A stretch of 64,000 bases of DNA from Aromatoleum buckelii (lineage in GTDB: Bacteria; Pseudomonadota; Gammaproteobacteria; Burkholderiales; Rhodocyclaceae). This document shows positions 3,212-10,709 of the stretch, piece by piece (positions within the stretch are counted from its first letter, which is position 1; every line of letters begins with the position of its first letter). The notes under the pieces were generated by a model, which did not search any database, was not told the origin of the DNA, and worked only from the letters and a program-made list of their open reading frames with translations. The DNA is taken from the NCBI RefSeq assembly GCF_012910785.2, contig NZ_WTVH02000010.1:1612001-1676000 (forward strand), given 5' to 3'. Made by a program: the position numbers and the translations under genes.

Positions 3212-4852
3212 TCAGATCAGTGCGGGCTCTCCCCCCGTGACGATCGACGCAGGCCGTGCCCGCGCGTCGGCGAGAATCATGTCGGCGGCCTTTTCCGCGA
3301 TCATGATCGTCGGCGCATTGGTGTTGCCGGACACGATCTCCGGCATGATTGAGGCATCGACGACGCGCAGCCCGACGAGCCCGCGCACGCGCAGGCGGTC
3401 ATCGACGACGGCCATCGCGTCCGCGCCCATCTTGCAAGTGCCCGCCGGGTGGTAGATCGACTGGCTGAAGCGGCGCGCGGCGTCGAGAAGCTCGTCGTCG
3501 CTGCGATAGCCCGCGCCCGGCACGAACTCCGAAATGATGTGCGGGCTCATCGACGGCGATGTGGCGATCCGCCGGGCGACCTTGATGCCGCCGATGATGA
3601 TCGGATGGTCGCGCTCGTCGGCAAGGTAGTTCGGGTGGATCGCCGGGTAACGCAACGGGTCGGCCGAGCGGATTTCGACACGTCCCCGGCTGTAGGGACG
3701 CAGCTGGCACACCGACGCGGTGAAAGCCGAGAACGGATGCGCGCCCTCGCCCGGCTTGTCGGCGCTCAGCGGCTGCATGTGGAACTGGATGTCGGGCCGC
3801 TCGACGCCGGGCGCCGAGCGCGTGAAGATCGCGACTTGGCTCGCCGCGAGCGTCAGCGGCCCGCTGCGCGACACCATGTACTGCAGCCCGATCCACAGCT
3901 TGTGGATCGGGCTGTTGACCTCGTCGTTGAGCGTGCGCTGACGCGTCTTGAAAACGAGGCGGACCTGCAGGTGATCCTGCAGGTTTTCGCCGACGCCCGG
4001 CAGGTGATGCACGACCGGCACGCCGACGCCCGCAAGGAGATTCAGCGGGCCGACGCCGGAGCACTGCAGGATCTGCGGCGAGCCGATCGCGCCCGCAGCG
4101 AGGATCACTTCGCGCTGCGCTCGGACCTGACGCAGTTGCCCGCCCTGGCGGAACTCGACCCCGACCGCGCGCTTGCCTTCGAACAGCACCCGCGTCGTCT
4201 GTGCATGGGTCTCGACCAGGAGGTTCGCACGCTTGCGCGCCGGGCGCAGGAAAGCCTTCGCCGTACTGCAGCGAAAGCCCTTGTGTGCGGTCTGCTGGAA
4301 ATAGCCGACGCCTTCCTGGCTCGCACCGTTGAAGTCGGGGTTGAACGGGATGCCGAGGTCGCGCGCGCCGGCGATGAAATAGTCCGCGATCGGTCGGCGC
4401 AGCCGCAGGTCGGACACCTTCAGCGGCCCGCCGGCGCCGTGGAACTCGGACGCGCCGCGTTCCTGGTCCTCGGATTTCCGGAAATACGGCAGAACCTCGT
4501 CGTAGCTCCAGCCCTTGTTGCCGAGCGCGGCCCAGCGGTCGTAGTCCTCGCGCTGGCCACGCACGTACAGCAAGCCGTTCAGCGAGCTCGATCCGCCGAG
4601 CACCTTGCCGCGCGGCCACTGCAGCTTGCGCCCGGCGATGCCTTCGTCCGGCTCGGTGACGAAGCACCAGTCGAACTTCGGGTCGTGCATCGTCTTGAAA
4701 TAGCCCACTGGAATGTGGATCCATGGATTGCTGTCGGGCCCTCCGGCCTCGAGCAGCAGCACGCGTACGCTGGGGTCGGCGGAGAGCCGGTTCGCGAGCA
4801 CGCATCCCGCTGAGCCTGCACCCACGACGACGTAGTCGACGGTGTCCCGCAT
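3212..4852 (-). CDS. GMC-family FAD-dependent alcohol dehydrogenase (choline / isethionate dehydrogenase-like)
   Basis: A 546-residue flavoprotein of the glucose-methanol-choline family. The FAD dinucleotide-binding motif GAGSAG is at residues 11-16, and both GMC signature regions are present. The active-site pair is His468 (HPAGTCKMG) and Asn512 (GNTNAP). The enzyme should oxidise a primary alcohol to an aldehyde and pass electrons to a membrane or cytochrome acceptor. ATG at 4852 has GGAGA upstream. It is first in an operon with the MHS transporter and divergent from an IclR regulator, with a palindromic candidate operator between them. This order resembles the iseR/iseJ/iseU arrangement for isethionate. 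Choline or another alcohol remains possible. Confidence 0.85.
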
Positions 4853-4935: not shown

Positions 4936-5006
4936 ACTTGCGGACGTTTCAACTATTCCGCACAGTGCAAGGCGGAGACAACAGCGAACTGCATGGGGGA
5001 CGCCAA

Positions 5007-5861
5007 GTGAAACAAGCCTCGTCCGATCCGTTTCAAAATCGCAGTGCAACATGGCCGAACGACGAGTTCGACGACGACGAATCGCCCGACGTCGGCGGCG
5101 AGGACGTGCGGGTGCTGCGTGCGTTGAACGTGCTGGAACAGCTTTCCGCGTCCGCGAACCCGGTGACTCTCGCGGTGCTCGCGCACCGTCTGCGGGTGCC
5201 GAAGCCCACGTTGATGCGGCTGCTGCGCGCGATGGAAATCGCCGGCTATGTGCTGCGCGGGCCGGCTGCCAGCGGTTTCGTCGCCGGGCCGCGAGCCGCC
5301 GCGCTTGCGCTGCGCACCCTGCGCGGTCCGGACCTGCGCCGTCACTGCCGCTCGATCCTGCGGCGGCTGGTCAACCGCCTTGGCGAGACCTGCAACCTGA
5401 CCGTCCCGGACGGCGCGCGTGTGCTGTACGTCGAGCGCGTCGAAACGAGCGAGCCGCTGCGCCTGCACCTGACGCCCGGAAGCTGGGTGCCGCTGCACTG
5501 CACCGCGAGCGGCAAGCTCTTCCTCGCGTCGATGTCGCTGCTCGAGCGCAGGCGCACGCTCGCGCATCTGCCACTGACGCGGGCGGCGCCGCGCACCCTC
5601 GTCGACCGCGACGCGCTCGACACCGAGCTCGACCGCCTTGTCCGGCTCGGCATCGGCGTCGATAACGAGGAGTTCGTGCGCGGCATGATCGCGGTCGCCG
5701 TGCCGGTGTTCGACAAGGACCGCAAGGTCGTCGCGGCGGTTGCGTGCCACGCGCCGACCGCGCGGTTGTCGCTCGACGAGCTTCTGACCTGCGTGCCTCA
5801 TCTGCGCACAGCTGCGGACGAGATGACGTCGGTGCTGTCGCCGGCGGTGACGTCGGCGTGA
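5007..5861 (+). CDS. IclR-family transcriptional regulator
   Basis: About 284 residues with the usual two-part IclR layout. A winged helix-turn-helix covers roughly residues 33-95 (NPVTLAVLAHRLRVPKPTLMR), and an effector-binding domain spans about 105-275, with the conserved HCTASGKLFLA and DNEEF motifs. The GTG at 5007 is chosen because GGGGGA lies six bases upstream; a TTG at 4938 would add 23 non-family residues. It is divergent from the GMC dehydrogenase/MHS transporter operon, which it probably controls together with itself through the palindrome at 4921. The N-terminal 30 residues are acidic and not conserved in the family. Confidence 0.85.
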   Translation: MKQASSDPFQNRSATWPNDEFDDDESPDVGGEDVRVLRALNVLEQLSASANPVTLAVLAHRLRVPKPTLMRLLRAMEIAGYVLRGPAASGFVAGPRAAALALRTLRGPDLRRHCRSILRRLVNRLGETCNLTVPDGARVLYVERVETSEPLRLHLTPGSWVPLHCTASGKLFLASMSLLERRRTLAHLPLTRAAPRTLVDRDALDTELDRLVRLGIGVDNEEFVRGMIAVAVPVFDKDRKVVAAVACHAPTARLSLDELLTCVPHLRTAADEMTSVLSPAVTSA

Positions 5862-5871
5862 CGGATGGCCG

Positions 5872-6633
5872 TCAGGCCGTGAAACTCCTGAGCGCCGAGA
5901 CGACGAGGCTCACGCCGATCGCGACGAGCGTGAGCGACGCGATGCGGCGCATCGTGCGCGGCGCAAGCGCCGGCGGATACCGCCTGCCCGCGAGCGTCGC
6001 GAGCGCGACCAGCGGAAGCGTGAAGGCGGCGAGTGTCAGGATCTCGGCATCGAAGCCGCCCTGCGCGGCGATGAACAGCGAGCGCGTGCCGGCCGTCACG
6101 GCAAACAGCAGTAGCAGCATGTTGCGCACCACGGCCGGCTCCATCGGCTGGCGGTAGAACTGGAAAATCAACGGCGGTCCGGCGATGCCGAAGAGTCCGC
6201 CGCTGAGCCCGGACAGGAAGCCGCTCGCGAAGAAGCTGCGCTCGGACGAGCGCGTGGCGAGCGTCGCCGGACGCAGCGAGAACGTGATGCTGCCGTGCAG
6301 GATCACGACGCCGAGCAGGAGTTGCAGCAGGTTCGACGCCGTGCCGCTGAGGAAGTCGAGCAGCAGCACGCCGGCGAGAATCGCCGGCAGGATTCCGAGC
6401 GACGCGGCACCGGCCGCGCGCCAGTCGATATGGTGCAGCCGGCCCGGCAATGCGCACGCGCTGTTCGCGACCGAGATCAGGCTGACGACAGTCGCGACCG
6501 TCGCGATCGACGCGAGGCCGAAGCCGCTGGTCGCTCCCATCACGATCATTCCGAGCCCGAAGCCGGTGACGGTCTGGAAATAGGTCGCGAGCGCGATGAC
6601 CGCGAGCAGCGGGAGCAGCGTCTCGAGGTTCAT
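5872..6633 (-). CDS. TauE/SafE-family sulfite/anion exporter
   Basis: A 253-residue integral membrane protein with about eight hydrophobic segments and the family's internal duplication: GFGLGMIVMG in the first half and SGLSGGLFGIAGPPL in the second. The ATG at 6633 fits the family N-terminus; the longer open frame upstream is not family-like. TauE proteins export sulfite released from C2 sulfonates. It lies downstream of pta on the same strand, 94 bases away, and pta-tauE adjacency is typical of sulfonate catabolism. Other TauE/SafE members move different anions, so the substrate is inferred from context. Confidence 0.85.
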   Translation of the reverse strand: MNLETLLPLLAVIALATYFQTVTGFGLGMIVMGATSGFGLASIATVATVVSLISVANSACALPGRLHHIDWRAAGAASLGILPAILAGVLLLDFLSGTASNLLQLLLGVVILHGSITFSLRPATLATRSSERSFFASGFLSGLSGGLFGIAGPPLIFQFYRQPMEPAVVRNMLLLLFAVTAGTRSLFIAAQGGFDAEILTLAAFTLPLVALATLAGRRYPPALAPRTMRRIASLTLVAIGVSLVVSALRSFTA

Positions 6634-6727
6634 CGCCGGACGCCCGATCGGTGGCGACCGGCGATCCGCCCGCGCTGCGCCGTGGCGCCCGGCACGATGC
6701 AGGCCGCCGAGGAAAGCAGCAGCCGGT

Positions 6728-7792
6728 TCATGCCGTCTCGCGAACCACCGCCGGCGCGCCCGACAGCGCCAATTCGGCGATGCGCCGCCGCTGCGCCGCC
6801 GCGTGCCCCTGCATGACCGTGACGGCGATGACGTGGAAGACGTCGTCGACGCTACAGCCGCGCGACAGGTCGTTCGCCGGCTTCGCGAGCCCCTGCAGCA
6901 GCGGGCCGATCGCGACTGCCCCGCCGACGCGTTCGGCGAGCTTGTAGCCGATGTTGCCCGCCTCGAGGTTCGGGAACACGAGCACGTTCGCGCGGCCGCC
7001 GACCTGCGAATCCGGAATCTTCCGGCTCGCGATCTCGGCGACGATCGCCGCATCGAGCTGCACGTCGCCGTCGATCGCGAGGTCCGGGCGCTGCGCGCGG
7101 ACCCGTCGCGCAGCATCCGCGACCTTGTCGACGGCGGCGTGCTTTGCGCTGCCGCCGGTCGAAAACGACAGCATCGCGACGCGCGGCTCTTCCATCAGCA
7201 GGCTGCGCGCACTGTCGGCCGCCGCCATCGCGATCTCCGACAGCGCTTCGGCATCCGGATCGATGACCAGGCCGCAGTCCGAGAAGATCAGGCCGCCCTT
7301 GAGACTGTGGAACGACTCGCACAGCATCATCAGGAAGAAGCTCGACACGAGCTTGAACGACGGGTCCGGACCGACGACCTGGATCGCGGTGCGGACGACG
7401 TCGGCGCTCGTGCGCACTGCGCCCGCGACCGAACCGTCGACGTGGCCGAGCCGCAGCATCAGGTTCGCGAAGCACAGCGGATCGAGCACCGCGCGCCGCG
7501 CCTCTTCAAGGCTCATGCCCTTGTTCCGCCGCAACGCGTGAAGCTCGTCGGCGAAACCGGCGGCGAGTGCGGAGTCGGTCGGGTCGACCAGCTCGGCGCC
7601 CTCGAGATCGATGCCTTCCGCTTCGGCGCATTTCCGTATCGCAGCACGGTCGCCCACGACGACGATATGCGCGATGCCGGCGCAAACGGCCCGCTCAGCC
7701 GCGCGGAGGATGCGCGGATCGTCGCCTTCGCTGAGCACGACCCGTCCGGGCCGGGCGCGAGCCTCATCGACGATCCGGTGGATTGCTTTCAT
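6728..7792 (-). CDS. pta: phosphate acetyltransferase, short form
   Basis: About 354 residues made almost entirely of the PTA/PTB catalytic domain, without the N-terminal domains of E. coli Pta. It interconverts acetyl phosphate and acetyl-CoA. Family motifs include the N-terminal LSEGDDPR, the central FSDCGLVIDPDAEA and the C-terminal GPLLQGLAKPANDLSRG. The ATG at 7792 has GAGGA eight bases upstream; ATG 7801 directly abuts that site and is less likely. Short Pta enzymes accompany Xsc in sulfonate degraders, where Xsc makes acetyl phosphate. No xsc and no acetate kinase gene are in the window. A terminator-like hairpin lies in its leader. Confidence 0.9.
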   Translation of the reverse strand: MKAIHRIVDEARARPGRVVLSEGDDPRILRAAERAVCAGIAHIVVVGDRAAIRKCAEAEGIDLEGAELVDPTDSALAAGFADELHALRRNKGMSLEEARRAVLDPLCFANLMLRLGHVDGSVAGAVRTSADVVRTAIQVVGPDPSFKLVSSFFLMMLCESFHSLKGGLIFSDCGLVIDPDAEALSEIAMAAADSARSLLMEEPRVAMLSFSTGGSAKHAAVDKVADAARRVRAQRPDLAIDGDVQLDAAIVAEIASRKIPDSQVGGRANVLVFPNLEAGNIGYKLAERVGGAVAIGPLLQGLAKPANDLSRGCSVDDVFHVIAVTVMQGHAAAQRRRIAELALSGAPAVVRETA

Positions 7793-8133
7793 TCGTTTCA
7801 TCCTCAAAAAATCGCCGGAACGGCTGAAACGTGGCCGTTCCGGCCAAAATCCCTGCCCCGTGCCGGGGCAGAGGAGGGAGGCTTGGATTCACGCGTCCGC
7901 CGCCTCGTTGGGGACGCGCGCAAAACCGTAGTCGAGGTCGGCGGACGCGTTCGACTGCGCTGCAACCGCCAAGCTTTATTTTGCTTATTTTTCAATTTGC
8001 GATACTTAATGTTCCGTTTTTTTAAACATGTTGCGAATCTAGGCGGCCTCGTAGCGATCGTCAACTGTTATTTCCATAAACCGGTACGGGGAGTATTATT
8101 TAGTGAAATACCGAAGCCAGGAGGCTCCACATC
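7793..8133. other. divergent promoter region between pta and the second IclR gene
   Basis: No gene is seen. Next to pta is the hairpin at 7814-7844. The centre (about 7970-8100) is much more AT-rich than the surroundings, with T and A runs, which suits two divergent promoters. Confidence 0.5.
7805..7844 (-). promoter_or_regulatory. terminator-like hairpin in the pta leader (candidate attenuator or operator)
   Basis: A perfect 11-bp inverted repeat, GCCGGAACGGC at 7814-7824 and GCCGTTCCGGC at 7834-7844, encloses a 9-base loop. Reading on the minus strand toward pta, the stem is followed by GA and then six Ts, immediately before the GAGGA ribosome binding site. This is the form of an intrinsic terminator placed just before a start codon. 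The arms also contain GGAACG/CGTTCC half-sites like those in the IclR-type palindromes, so a DNA operator is the alternative. Confidence 0.5.
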
Positions 8134-8955
8134 ATGAAGAACACGGCAAGCTTGCGCGCCGAACCCGGCCGGCTCGACGGCGACACCCCGACGATGCGGC
8201 TTTTCAGCCTGCTCGAAGTGATCGCCGAGAAGGATGAGACGTTCTCGCTGCAGAGTCTCGTCGAGGAGACGGGGCTGCCGAAGCCGACACTGCACCGGAT
8301 GCTGCAGCAGCTCGAATCGGAAGGCATGCTCCAACGCGAAGGCGACGGCCGCCACTACAGCACCGGCGTGCGGCTGCGGCGCCTCGCCGAGAATCTCCTC
8401 CTCAACAGCACGACGCACGGCGCGCGCCACGTCGTGCTGCGCCAGCTCGTCGAGGAAGTCGGCGAGAGCTGCAACATCACCGCGTTCTCCGGCAGCGAAG
8501 TCATGTACCTCGACCGACTGGAATCGCCGGCGCCGTTGCGCTTCTACCTCCAGCCCGGTTCACGTGTGCCGGTGCACTGCTCCGCGACCGGCAAGTTGTT
8601 CCTTGCACAGATGACGCCCGCACAACGGCGCCGCCTGCTCGCACATGTTCCGCTCGAGAAATTCACCGCCAACACGATCACGGATTTCGACGCGCTCGAA
8701 CGCGAAATCGAGGAGGTCAAGCGCAACGGATACGCGCTCGACAACGAGGAATTCCTGCCGGGTTTGCAGTGCATCGGAGTGCTGGTTCCGTCGGAGGGCC
8801 GTCACTGCAACATGGGCCTTGCGATTCAGGCCCCGATCATGCGCTTTCCGCGGGAGAAGGCGCTTAGCTTCCTGCCCGCCCTCGAGCGGGCGGCTGAGGC
8901 TTTGGCGAGCATCGAGCGCAGTGGCGCAGCAGAGCGGCGACGCCACGAAGCGTAG
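8134..8955 (+). CDS. IclR-family transcriptional regulator (second copy)
   Basis: 273 residues. The winged helix-turn-helix lies at about residues 20-85 (FSLQSLVEETGLPKPTLHRML) and the effector domain at about 95-265, with VHCSATGKLFLAQM and the DNEEF motif. ATG at 8134 follows CCAGGAGGCTCCACATC, a good ribosome binding site. It is divergent from pta-tauE and clearly related to the regulator at 5007, though the two are far from identical. Its likely targets are the pta promoter and its own gene. Confidence 0.85.
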   Translation: MKNTASLRAEPGRLDGDTPTMRLFSLLEVIAEKDETFSLQSLVEETGLPKPTLHRMLQQLESEGMLQREGDGRHYSTGVRLRRLAENLLLNSTTHGARHVVLRQLVEEVGESCNITAFSGSEVMYLDRLESPAPLRFYLQPGSRVPVHCSATGKLFLAQMTPAQRRRLLAHVPLEKFTANTITDFDALEREIEEVKRNGYALDNEEFLPGLQCIGVLVPSEGRHCNMGLAIQAPIMRFPREKALSFLPALERAAEALASIERSGAAERRRHEA

Positions 8956-8973
8956 TCGAAGACAATGCTGCTC

Positions 8974-9132
8974 TCACTTGCGGTAATACGGGCGGGCTAC
9001 AGGCGTTCGGACGCTCCACAGGGGCTGCTGCATCAGGGCGTTTGCATCTGCGTCCTGTTCAGCCGAAAACACCGTCCGGCTCCTGCCCGCTGGACGGCAT
9101 TCGTAAGCCGGCGCCCAACTGCTGCCGTTCAT
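8974..9132 (-). CDS. candidate small protein, 52 residues
   Basis: ATG at 9132 is preceded by GAGGT with seven bases of spacing, and a perfect 15-bp palindrome (9146-9160) lies directly upstream of that site. The product begins MNGSSWAPAYECRPAGRSR, ends PYYRK, has one Cys and no membrane segment. I do not recognise it. It converges with the IclR gene, 18 bases away. Support comes from the start context, since no homology is known to me. It could instead be a remnant of a longer gene whose promoter was cut off by the IS insertion at 9187. Confidence 0.4.
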   Translation of the reverse strand: MNGSSWAPAYECRPAGRSRTVFSAEQDADANALMQQPLWSVRTPVARPYYRK

Positions 9133-9204: not shown

Positions 9205-9260
9205 CGTGAACCATCCCGCCAGGGTTCTGTCTATGCATAAAGCATGGTTTGAGGTGGGCG

Positions 9261-10709
9261 ATGAAGCGATACATCGAAGGGAAGAGTCGGGCGCAGATGG
9301 TGTTGATGCCCGAATCACTGGATGACTTCATTGGTGAAGACAATCCGGTGCGGGTGATCGACCTGTTTGTCGATGAACTGGATTTGCAAGGTCTGGGGTT
9401 CGCGTCTGCGCAGCCTGCCGTCACGGGACGGCCGGGCTACCACCCGGGCTTGCTGCTCAAGCTTTACATCTACGGCTATCTGAATCGGGTTCAGTCCAGC
9501 CGCCGACTTGAGCGGGAGGCCCAGCGCAACGTTGAAGTCATGTGGCTCACGGGGCACTTGACGCCCGACTTCAAGACCATTGCCGATTTCCGTCGAGACA
9601 ATGGCATCGGCATTCGCAACGCCTGCAAGCAGTTCATCGCGTTGTGCCGCGAGCTGGACCTGTTCAGCCATGCGGTGGTGGCCATCGATGGAGCCAAGTT
9701 CAAGGCCGTGAACAACCGGGATAAGAACTTCACGCCGCACAAACTGGAGCAGCGCATCAAGCAGATCGAGGAAAGCATCGAGCGCTACCTGCACGCCTTG
9801 GATACCGCCGATCGCACGCAGCCTGCGGAGGTGGAAGCCAAGACGAAGAACCTGAAAGAGAAACTCGTCCGGCTCAGAAAGCAGATGCGTTACCTGCAGG
9901 AGATGGGCGAGCGCCTGCGCCAGGCCCCCGATGAGCAGGTCTCGCTGACCGATCCGGACGCCCGCTCCATGGCGACCAGCGGTCGTGGCACCGGGATGGT
10001 CGGTTACAACGTGCAGGTCGCGGTCGATACCGAGCATCACCTGATCGTCGCGCACGATGTCGTGAATCTCGGTCATGATCGTACGCAACTCGCCTCGATG
10101 GCCATGCAGGCCAAGGTGGCGATAGATGAAGAAACCCTGGAGGTGCTTGCTGATCGTGGCTACTACAAGGGGCCGGAAATTCTGGCCTGTGAGCAGTCAG
10201 GCATTACGCCCTTCGTGCCCATGACGATGACCAGCGACAACAAGGCGCGTGGCCTGTTCGACAAGCGCGACTTCGTCTAACCCGATCAGGATGCGTACCG
10301 CTGCCCCAGCGATCAGTTATTGTCACGTCATCATCAGTCTGTCGAGCAGGGGTTGGTCATCCACACCTATTACAACCTGGGTGCATGCATGCAATGCCCC
10401 ATCAAGGCGCGGTGCACGACCGCGGAGAAAGAGCGCCGAGTTCGGCGCTGGGAGCATGAGGCCGTATTGGAGTCCATGCAGCGTCGCCTCGATGCCTGCC
10501 CCGGCAAGATGCGACAGCGGCGCAGCACGGTTGAGCATGTGTTCGGGACCCTGAAGTCCTGGATGGGCGCCACGCACTTCCTTACGAAAACCCGACCACG
10601 TGTGCAGACGGAGATGAGCTTGCATGTGATGGCGTACAACCTACGCCGGATCATCAGCCTGTACGGCCCAAAAGGCGCAATGAATGCGCTGCGGTGGGCC
10701 GCAGCTTGA
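9261..10709 (+). pseudogene. IS1182-family DDE transposase with an in-frame stop
   Basis: ATG at 9261 follows GAGG at good spacing. The N-terminal DUF772-like region (MVLMPESLDDFIGEDNPVRV) and the RNase H-like DDE core (VAIDGAKFKAVN, later VLADRGYYKG) are present. TAA at 10278-10280 interrupts the frame after DKRDFV. The same frame then continues to 10709 with family C-terminal sequence, including the Cys pair CMQCPIKARC and the acidic VEHVFGTLKSW. The stop is therefore a point nonsense change, probably from a Tyr codon. The element is likely inactive unless the stop is read through or helped in trans. Confidence 0.8.

Follow-up and report, generated by a model that had tools for sequence, protein, structure and literature searches.

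The hairpin that lies directly before the phosphate acetyltransferase gene pta in Aromatoleum buckelii is conserved throughout the pta loci of its genus, with compensatory changes in its stem, and is probably a genuine intrinsic terminator that acts as a leaky, essentially fixed attenuator of pta and tauE, descended from a terminator between xsc and pta and kept by selection. This reading comes from comparison of a 64,000-nucleotide stretch of A. buckelii DNA (hereafter, the window) with loci of 17 genomes of the genus, 13 of which have a close pta, and with xsc-pta loci of more distant relatives. According to the model that we favor, polymerase would start at an IclR-controlled promoter near position 8030 and transcribe about 220 nt, after which a fraction of the transcripts would end at 7811-7806 and the remainder would read into pta. 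The terminator would descend from the one between xsc and pta in an ancestral operon in which an IclR-family gene was divergent from xsc, terminator, pta and tauE, and in which termination would have let Xsc exceed Pta. Upon the loss of xsc from this position, with another copy and a similar operator-like site staying about 10 kb away, the terminator would have been retained as the pta leader by selection, preserving the Xsc:Pta ratio.

Structure of the hairpin before pta

The pta gene encodes a protein of 354 aa (6728..7792, minus strand; TIGR00651, 352 bits against a cut-off of 311) and is followed in the same direction by a gene for a tauE-like sulfite exporter (5872..6774, minus strand, start approximate; Pfam TauE, 67 bits against a cut-off of 33). 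Along the minus strand the leader ends in the order GCCGGAACGGC-CACGTTTCA-GCCGTTCCGGC-GA-TTTTTT-GAGG, then nine bases and the pta ATG (7792-7790). The terminator hairpin (7814..7844, minus strand), as read from the sequence and from covariation, has a perfect 11-bp stem, nine pairs of which are G-C, formed by the 5' arm GCCGGAACGGC (7844-7834) and the 3' arm GCCGTTCCGGC (7824-7814) around the 9-nt loop CACGTTTCA (7833-7825). It is followed by a 2-nt GA spacer (7813-7812) and by the run of six Ts (7811-7806) that is the predicted 3' end of the terminated leader RNA, and the pta Shine-Dalgarno sequence GAGG, as read from the sequence, abuts that run (7805-7802). These features agree with the sequence-only reading from which the analysis departed, which had correctly described the 11-bp stem, the six Ts and their position before the ribosome binding site. 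A G+C-rich hairpin and then a U-run, the hallmarks of an intrinsic (Rho-independent) terminator, are both present, and the GA between them may weaken termination.

The rarity of such a structure was gauged in 460 kb of the A. buckelii genome, made up of the window and 20 sampled stretches, in which four perfect T-tailed stems of at least 9 bp were found on the two strands together. The pta hairpin is the only one of the four directly 5' of a called gene start, the remaining three being at least 255 bases from the next called start on the same strand. Six Markov-1 simulations of 460 kb gave 0, 0, 1, 0, 0 and 0 stems of at least 9 bp and none of at least 11 bp. With imperfect stems allowed, a T-tailed hairpin of -18 kcal/mol or lower was present at 4 of 84 divergent starts, pta included, in genes called by a simple codon-usage script, and a leader hairpin of terminator type is therefore uncommon, yet not unique, in this genome. 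A second control covered 36 divergent leader directions, of which one reached -12 kcal/mol or lower; the pta hairpin is missing from this count, the pta start having been placed too far 5' by the script. A consensus terminator scan did not list the pta hairpin, presumably owing to the scan's loop limit of 8, against a loop of 9. Membership of a repeat family was ruled out, the hairpin being single-copy in its own genome when up to three arm mismatches were allowed at the same loop length.

Conservation and covariation

The hairpin and T-run were found in all 12 genus pta loci that do not have xsc directly upstream, with five Ts 3' of the stem invariant in every one, and where measured (11 of these loci) 10-14 nt separate the end of the 8-nt tail from the start codon. 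Sequence identity among five divergent representatives (L084, which has no such promoter, was left out of this comparison and of the antiterminator duplex test described below) was 94% in the arms, 85% in the tail, 75% in the operator-like site, 58% in the stretch of the upstream hairpin 1, 56% in the promoter, 37% in the loop and 24% between the operator and the hairpins. Covariation was assessed on 25 chosen sequences (alignment A2), in which 92.4% of cells were paired and both-side changes occurred in 7 of the 11 pairs; none of 500 shuffles equaled this and slid controls were far lower. Both this alignment and the 18-sequence alignment of the two hairpins (A4) consist of hairpin-bearing loci, and L121, L126, L006, L013, L017, L018 and others without the hairpin were not counted in them. 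The 12 genus loci taken alone contain seven double-change cells, a number that none of 500 shuffles matched. Their signal is otherwise smaller, with two pairs showing double changes (reached by 139 of 500 shuffles), eight of the 11 pairs never varying, and further pair types reached by 39 of 500 shuffles. The compensatory changes that the sequence-only reading had suggested seeking in the leaders of relatives are present, in the broad set and in the genus, and the absence of stem conservation, which it had named as grounds for abandoning the idea, was not observed. The near-identity of the arms beside a diverged loop and leader, together with the compensatory changes in the stem, indicates that the pta hairpin is under selection.

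Two other readings of the hairpin were considered. It could be a non-functional relic, left behind after the loss of xsc and persisting by inertia while pta is transcribed through it; an origin by xsc loss fits the gene orders described below, but conserved arms, a diverged loop and leader and compensatory changes speak for selection rather than inertia, and make a relic highly improbable. A post-transcriptional role, with the hairpin either stabilizing pta mRNA at its 5' end or marking a site for its processing, or else forming the 3' terminus of a small RNA derived from the leader, would suit its place beside the Shine-Dalgarno sequence and the stability of the leader fold (z -4.5). We consider such a role very unlikely, as the five Ts invariant in 12 of 12 genus loci would be unneeded for mRNA stability, in xsc-pta relatives belonging to the family the hairpin is 46-60 nt from the start codon, and in several others 20-39 nt, and a small RNA would require a target.

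Gene order and proposed origin of the leader

It had been remarked from the sequence that no minus-strand gene lies directly upstream whose transcript the hairpin could end. This is true of the window as it is now, the next gene (8134..8955, plus strand) being divergent and encoding an IclR-family regulator. An upstream gene was probably present in the past, however, since relatives have xsc at that place. One genus member (G012; L003, L175 and L176) has the IclR gene divergent from xsc, which is followed by the hairpin, pta and tauE, with a second xsc and then yeiH about 15 kb further on; another (G001; L174) has the IclR gene divergent from xsc, followed by an amino-acid permease gene (Pfam AA_permease), the hairpin, pta and tauE, and also possesses a second xsc-yeiH pair. 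In the remaining 11 of the 13 genus members it is pta from which the IclR gene diverges, and xsc is elsewhere, as in A. buckelii, whose xsc (C2:1606530-1608284), followed by yeiH, is to the left of the window. The same 13 genomes have xsc above the family cut-off, and G002, G003, G010 and G016 are without both genes. A position between co-directional genes, which defines an internal operon terminator, is therefore occupied by the hairpin in the relatives with xsc upstream and not in the window.

The ancestral order was likely the IclR gene (divergent), xsc, the hairpins, pta and tauE. The simplest reading of the rearrangement, whose direction we infer, is a loss of the promoter-proximal xsc, by which its promoter, operator and downstream terminator came to be fused to pta. 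Since xsc is absent from that place in 11 of the 13 genus members, the intercistronic terminator probably became a 5' leader in them.

The two xsc copies within each of the two exceptional genomes are about 11-16 kb apart and identical, over 1809 of 1809 bases in G001 (L174, 3195-5003 and 16390-18198) and 1791 of 1791 in G012 (L175, 1270-3060; L176, 3672-5462), which would be accounted for by gene conversion, by a recent duplication or, possibly, by an effect of assembly. The xsc of G009 (L169) matches the family model only over positions 179-579, with the start and end motifs present, and may contain a frameshift or sequence error. A G+C-rich inverted repeat with no T-run behind it lies in the xsc-yeiH gap of L138 (10435-10514, minus strand); it is also visible by eye in several relatives and is perhaps an mRNA-stabilizing hairpin. 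Within the window, an IS1182-family transposase lies beside the IclR gene (9249-10709, plus strand) as an NCBIfam-matched ORF (9249-10280) and a separate DDE end (10320-10709; Pfam DDE_Tnp_1_6), and is probably a frame-shifted or degraded insertion sequence. A second IclR-family gene (4938-5861, plus strand) stands beside tauE and a choline-dehydrogenase-like gene (3212-4852), an order that is kept in G001 (L174).

In the wider Proteobacteria, 36 of 47 gaps between xsc and pta hold a T-tailed hairpin of -12 kcal/mol or lower, whereas 12 of 80 same-strand gaps of the A. buckelii genome, taken as a control, do so; the 47 loci are related, and the 36 are therefore not independent events. The scan left out 29 of 80 loci, namely L039, which has no gene start, and the more distant L054-L081. 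As 11 of the 47 loci are without a hairpin of that stability, with intergenic gaps of only 13-24 nt in L013, L017 and L018, a terminator is not needed everywhere. In the genus, the leaders of the xsc genes with an operator-like site (13 of 13) have a T-tailed hairpin of -4.8 kcal/mol at best, or none, and the terminator before pta would for this reason keep pta-tauE below xsc.

Promoter and candidate operator

The predicted pta promoter (8036..8064, minus strand) consists of TTGACG, 17 nt and TAGATT, and the same layout is seen in relatives. If it is the sole promoter, termination at the hairpin would have to be partial, since no promoter fits into the 13 nt between the T-run and the start codon. 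Just downstream of its -10 is a predicted operator, CGGAACATTAAGTATCG (8000..8016, minus strand), and a second, degenerate operator-like site, TAATAC-N5-GTACCG (8082..8098, minus strand), recognized by eye with the relatives as a guide, may lie upstream of the -35. A longer inverted repeat with 12-bp arms, ACGCGTCCGCCG / CGGCGGACGCGT (7891..7950, minus strand), lies in a part of the leader that shows little conservation across the genus and is almost wholly missing in L085, and was set aside as accessory.

The pattern of the candidate operator, CGGWAC-N5-GTAYCG, is by itself not enriched in the A. buckelii genome, with three exact occurrences (one of them at 8000-8016) against seven of the reversed pattern, and its candidacy follows from its fixed place at promoters and not from its genome-wide frequency. 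When one position was relaxed, an operator-like site was found at the same place in 10 of 12 genus pta promoters, the exceptions being L084, with the permease gene upstream, and L085, with a weaker version. With the same relaxation it was found in 13 of 15 genus xsc loci, and by eye the other two, L164 and L165, come close to a match there. The site at the A. buckelii xsc is CGGAACGAAGAGTGCCG. In the form of the 17-bp palindrome CGGAAC-N5-GTACCG, it stands just after the -10 of xsc promoters (e.g., in L163 and L168) and pta promoters. We propose this promoter palindrome as a putative binding site of the divergently encoded IclR protein.

IclR proteins generally require a fixed spacing of half-sites, and this requirement bears on the second proposal of the sequence-only reading, that the hairpin itself is a regulator site composed of GGAACG/CGTTCC half-sites. 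CGGAAC does recur as a half-site in the operator-like promoter sequence, but the gap between CGGAAC and GTTCCG in the hairpin is 15 (two loci), 18, 20, 22 or 23 (seven loci), against a 5-bp spacer at the promoter sites that is fixed by the search pattern. The half-sites moreover change in the xsc-pta relatives while pairing persists, and the five Ts are invariant. That the hairpin is an operator is hardly credible on these grounds.

A two-hairpin element upstream of pta

The terminator is preceded by a second structure, hairpin 1 (7853..7871, minus strand; core CTGCCCCG / CGGGGCAG), which forms the first half of a two-hairpin element. It covaries as well, with both-side changes in 5 of 9 pairs and 80.6% of cells paired among 18 chosen sequences; for the two-hairpin alignment as a whole, 42 of 500 shuffles matched its further pair types, and none matched the remaining four whole-structure measures. 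R1, a covariance model built on both hairpins, gave one strong match in the A. buckelii genome (E 3.7e-17, followed by a match at E 0.2, with 150 of 2549 candidates scored) and 48 matches in 47 of 346 family genomes (12 first-look candidates scored per genome), numbers of candidates small enough that weak copies elsewhere could be missed. Thirty of the 48 matches, those with E 9e-7 or better, were examined and all 30 are directly upstream of pta, 18 of them being training sequences and 12 from outside the training set; the other 18 comprise the G012 xsc-pta gap and 17 matches at E 2e-6 to 9e-4. Applied to 33 named-genome loci with xsc upstream, R1 gave 10 matches at E 0.1 or lower, one elsewhere (L020) and nine in the gap before pta, which belong to L009 (a training sequence) and to loci of Janthinobacterium, Paraburkholderia, Burkholderia, Cupriavidus, an Azoarcus and a Rudaea MAG. 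Near hairpin 1, loops rich in C and poor in G are recurrent, as is a stretch resembling CCCTCC. The latter may be an anti-Shine-Dalgarno or factor-binding site, though it does not keep to one structural position.

The covariation of both hairpins, the invariable position of the 30 examined R1 matches before pta and the recurrent C-rich loops and CCCTCC-like stretch are what might be expected of a regulated attenuator, in which a metabolite (acetyl phosphate, sulfite or a taurine-derived compound), a protein or a small RNA would switch termination, with hairpin 1 and the C-rich loops as the sensor. We consider this rather unlikely. A simple two-segment duplex test on 11 genus loci found no antiterminator, as no leader segment paired with the terminator arms or the Shine-Dalgarno region clearly better than in 200 resampled leaders of each locus, 40 to 200 of which did as well. 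No short ORF that could encode a leader peptide is common to all 12 leaders, an 18-codon ORF being present in some close relatives only, and a search of positions 7000-9000 of the window against Rfam gave five matches, all sub-threshold. Two of these, Collinsella-1 (16 bits, cut-off 35) and P10 (17.1 bits, cut-off 37), overlap or adjoin the hairpin on the plus strand. In L085, only about 54 nt separate the operator from the terminator, leaving little room for an aptamer. Pairing between the loop and the Shine-Dalgarno region (CGUUUCA with UGAAACG) can be drawn in the window and is absent by eye from L083 and L084, and was taken as chance.

These tests found in the leader neither a mutually exclusive antiterminator nor a known aptamer or shared leader peptide, by which conditional attenuators and riboswitches are recognized, and a fixed ratio device is preferred over a sensor because no switch was found. 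The attenuation of pta-tauE proposed in the sequence-only reading holds in so far as the leader carries a terminator-like element, whose conservation and covariation are best read as partial termination, but for its regulated form no antiterminator, shared leader ORF or Rfam family above its cut-off was found. Distinctly unlikely, in our estimation, is the further idea that the two hairpins constitute a new pta-specific regulatory RNA responding to a metabolite of the acetyl phosphate or sulfite step, which arose between xsc and pta and was captured as a stand-alone leader after xsc loss.

Comparison with known systems

The genomes compared here form a natural series in which a terminator between genes seems, once the first gene had been lost, to have become a leader attenuator and to have been kept. 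Such a series favors the idea that selection for enzyme ratios acts on terminators inside operons, in a setting where loci with and without xsc in front can be compared, and the analysis also provides a candidate operator for an IclR-type regulator of the genus's taurine genes. No paper on a terminator at xsc-pta was found in the open-licence literature, and the element is unnamed among the matches listed there on taurine or xsc regulation, on Aromatoleum and taurine, and on structured RNA motifs. Leaders such as those of trp, his and riboswitch-controlled operons hold attenuators whose terminator is part of the 5' leader and stands immediately ahead of the first gene. The pta leader is alike in the placement of its terminator and differs from leader-peptide and riboswitch attenuators in that no antiterminator, known aptamer or shared leader peptide was found in it.

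With respect to its genes, the locus resembles the regulons of TauR, a regulator of the MocR/GntR family described as controlling taurine genes that include xsc, pta and tauE (PMC5320631). Pathway genes are shared between them, whereas the divergently encoded regulator here is of the IclR family, and the word "terminator" is absent from the main text of the TauR paper. Termination sites inside operons of Methanococcus maripaludis are described as tuning downstream genes, with mutation of the sites raising downstream expression (PMC10450193); unlike the pta leader, these sites are archaeal, are not in a leader and have been measured. A further likeness is to the ABC-importer operons of cellulolytic clostridia, in which, as described in PMC9045158, internal intrinsic terminators set stoichiometry, a stem-loop between operon genes causing premature termination such that the upstream transcript exceeds the downstream one. 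The clostridial operons keep their upstream gene and their transcripts were measured, whereas the pta terminator, with no upstream gene left, heads its operon and is predicted from sequence. Internal terminators that set ratios are thus already known, and what is unusual in the pta element is its history, from between-gene terminator to leader.
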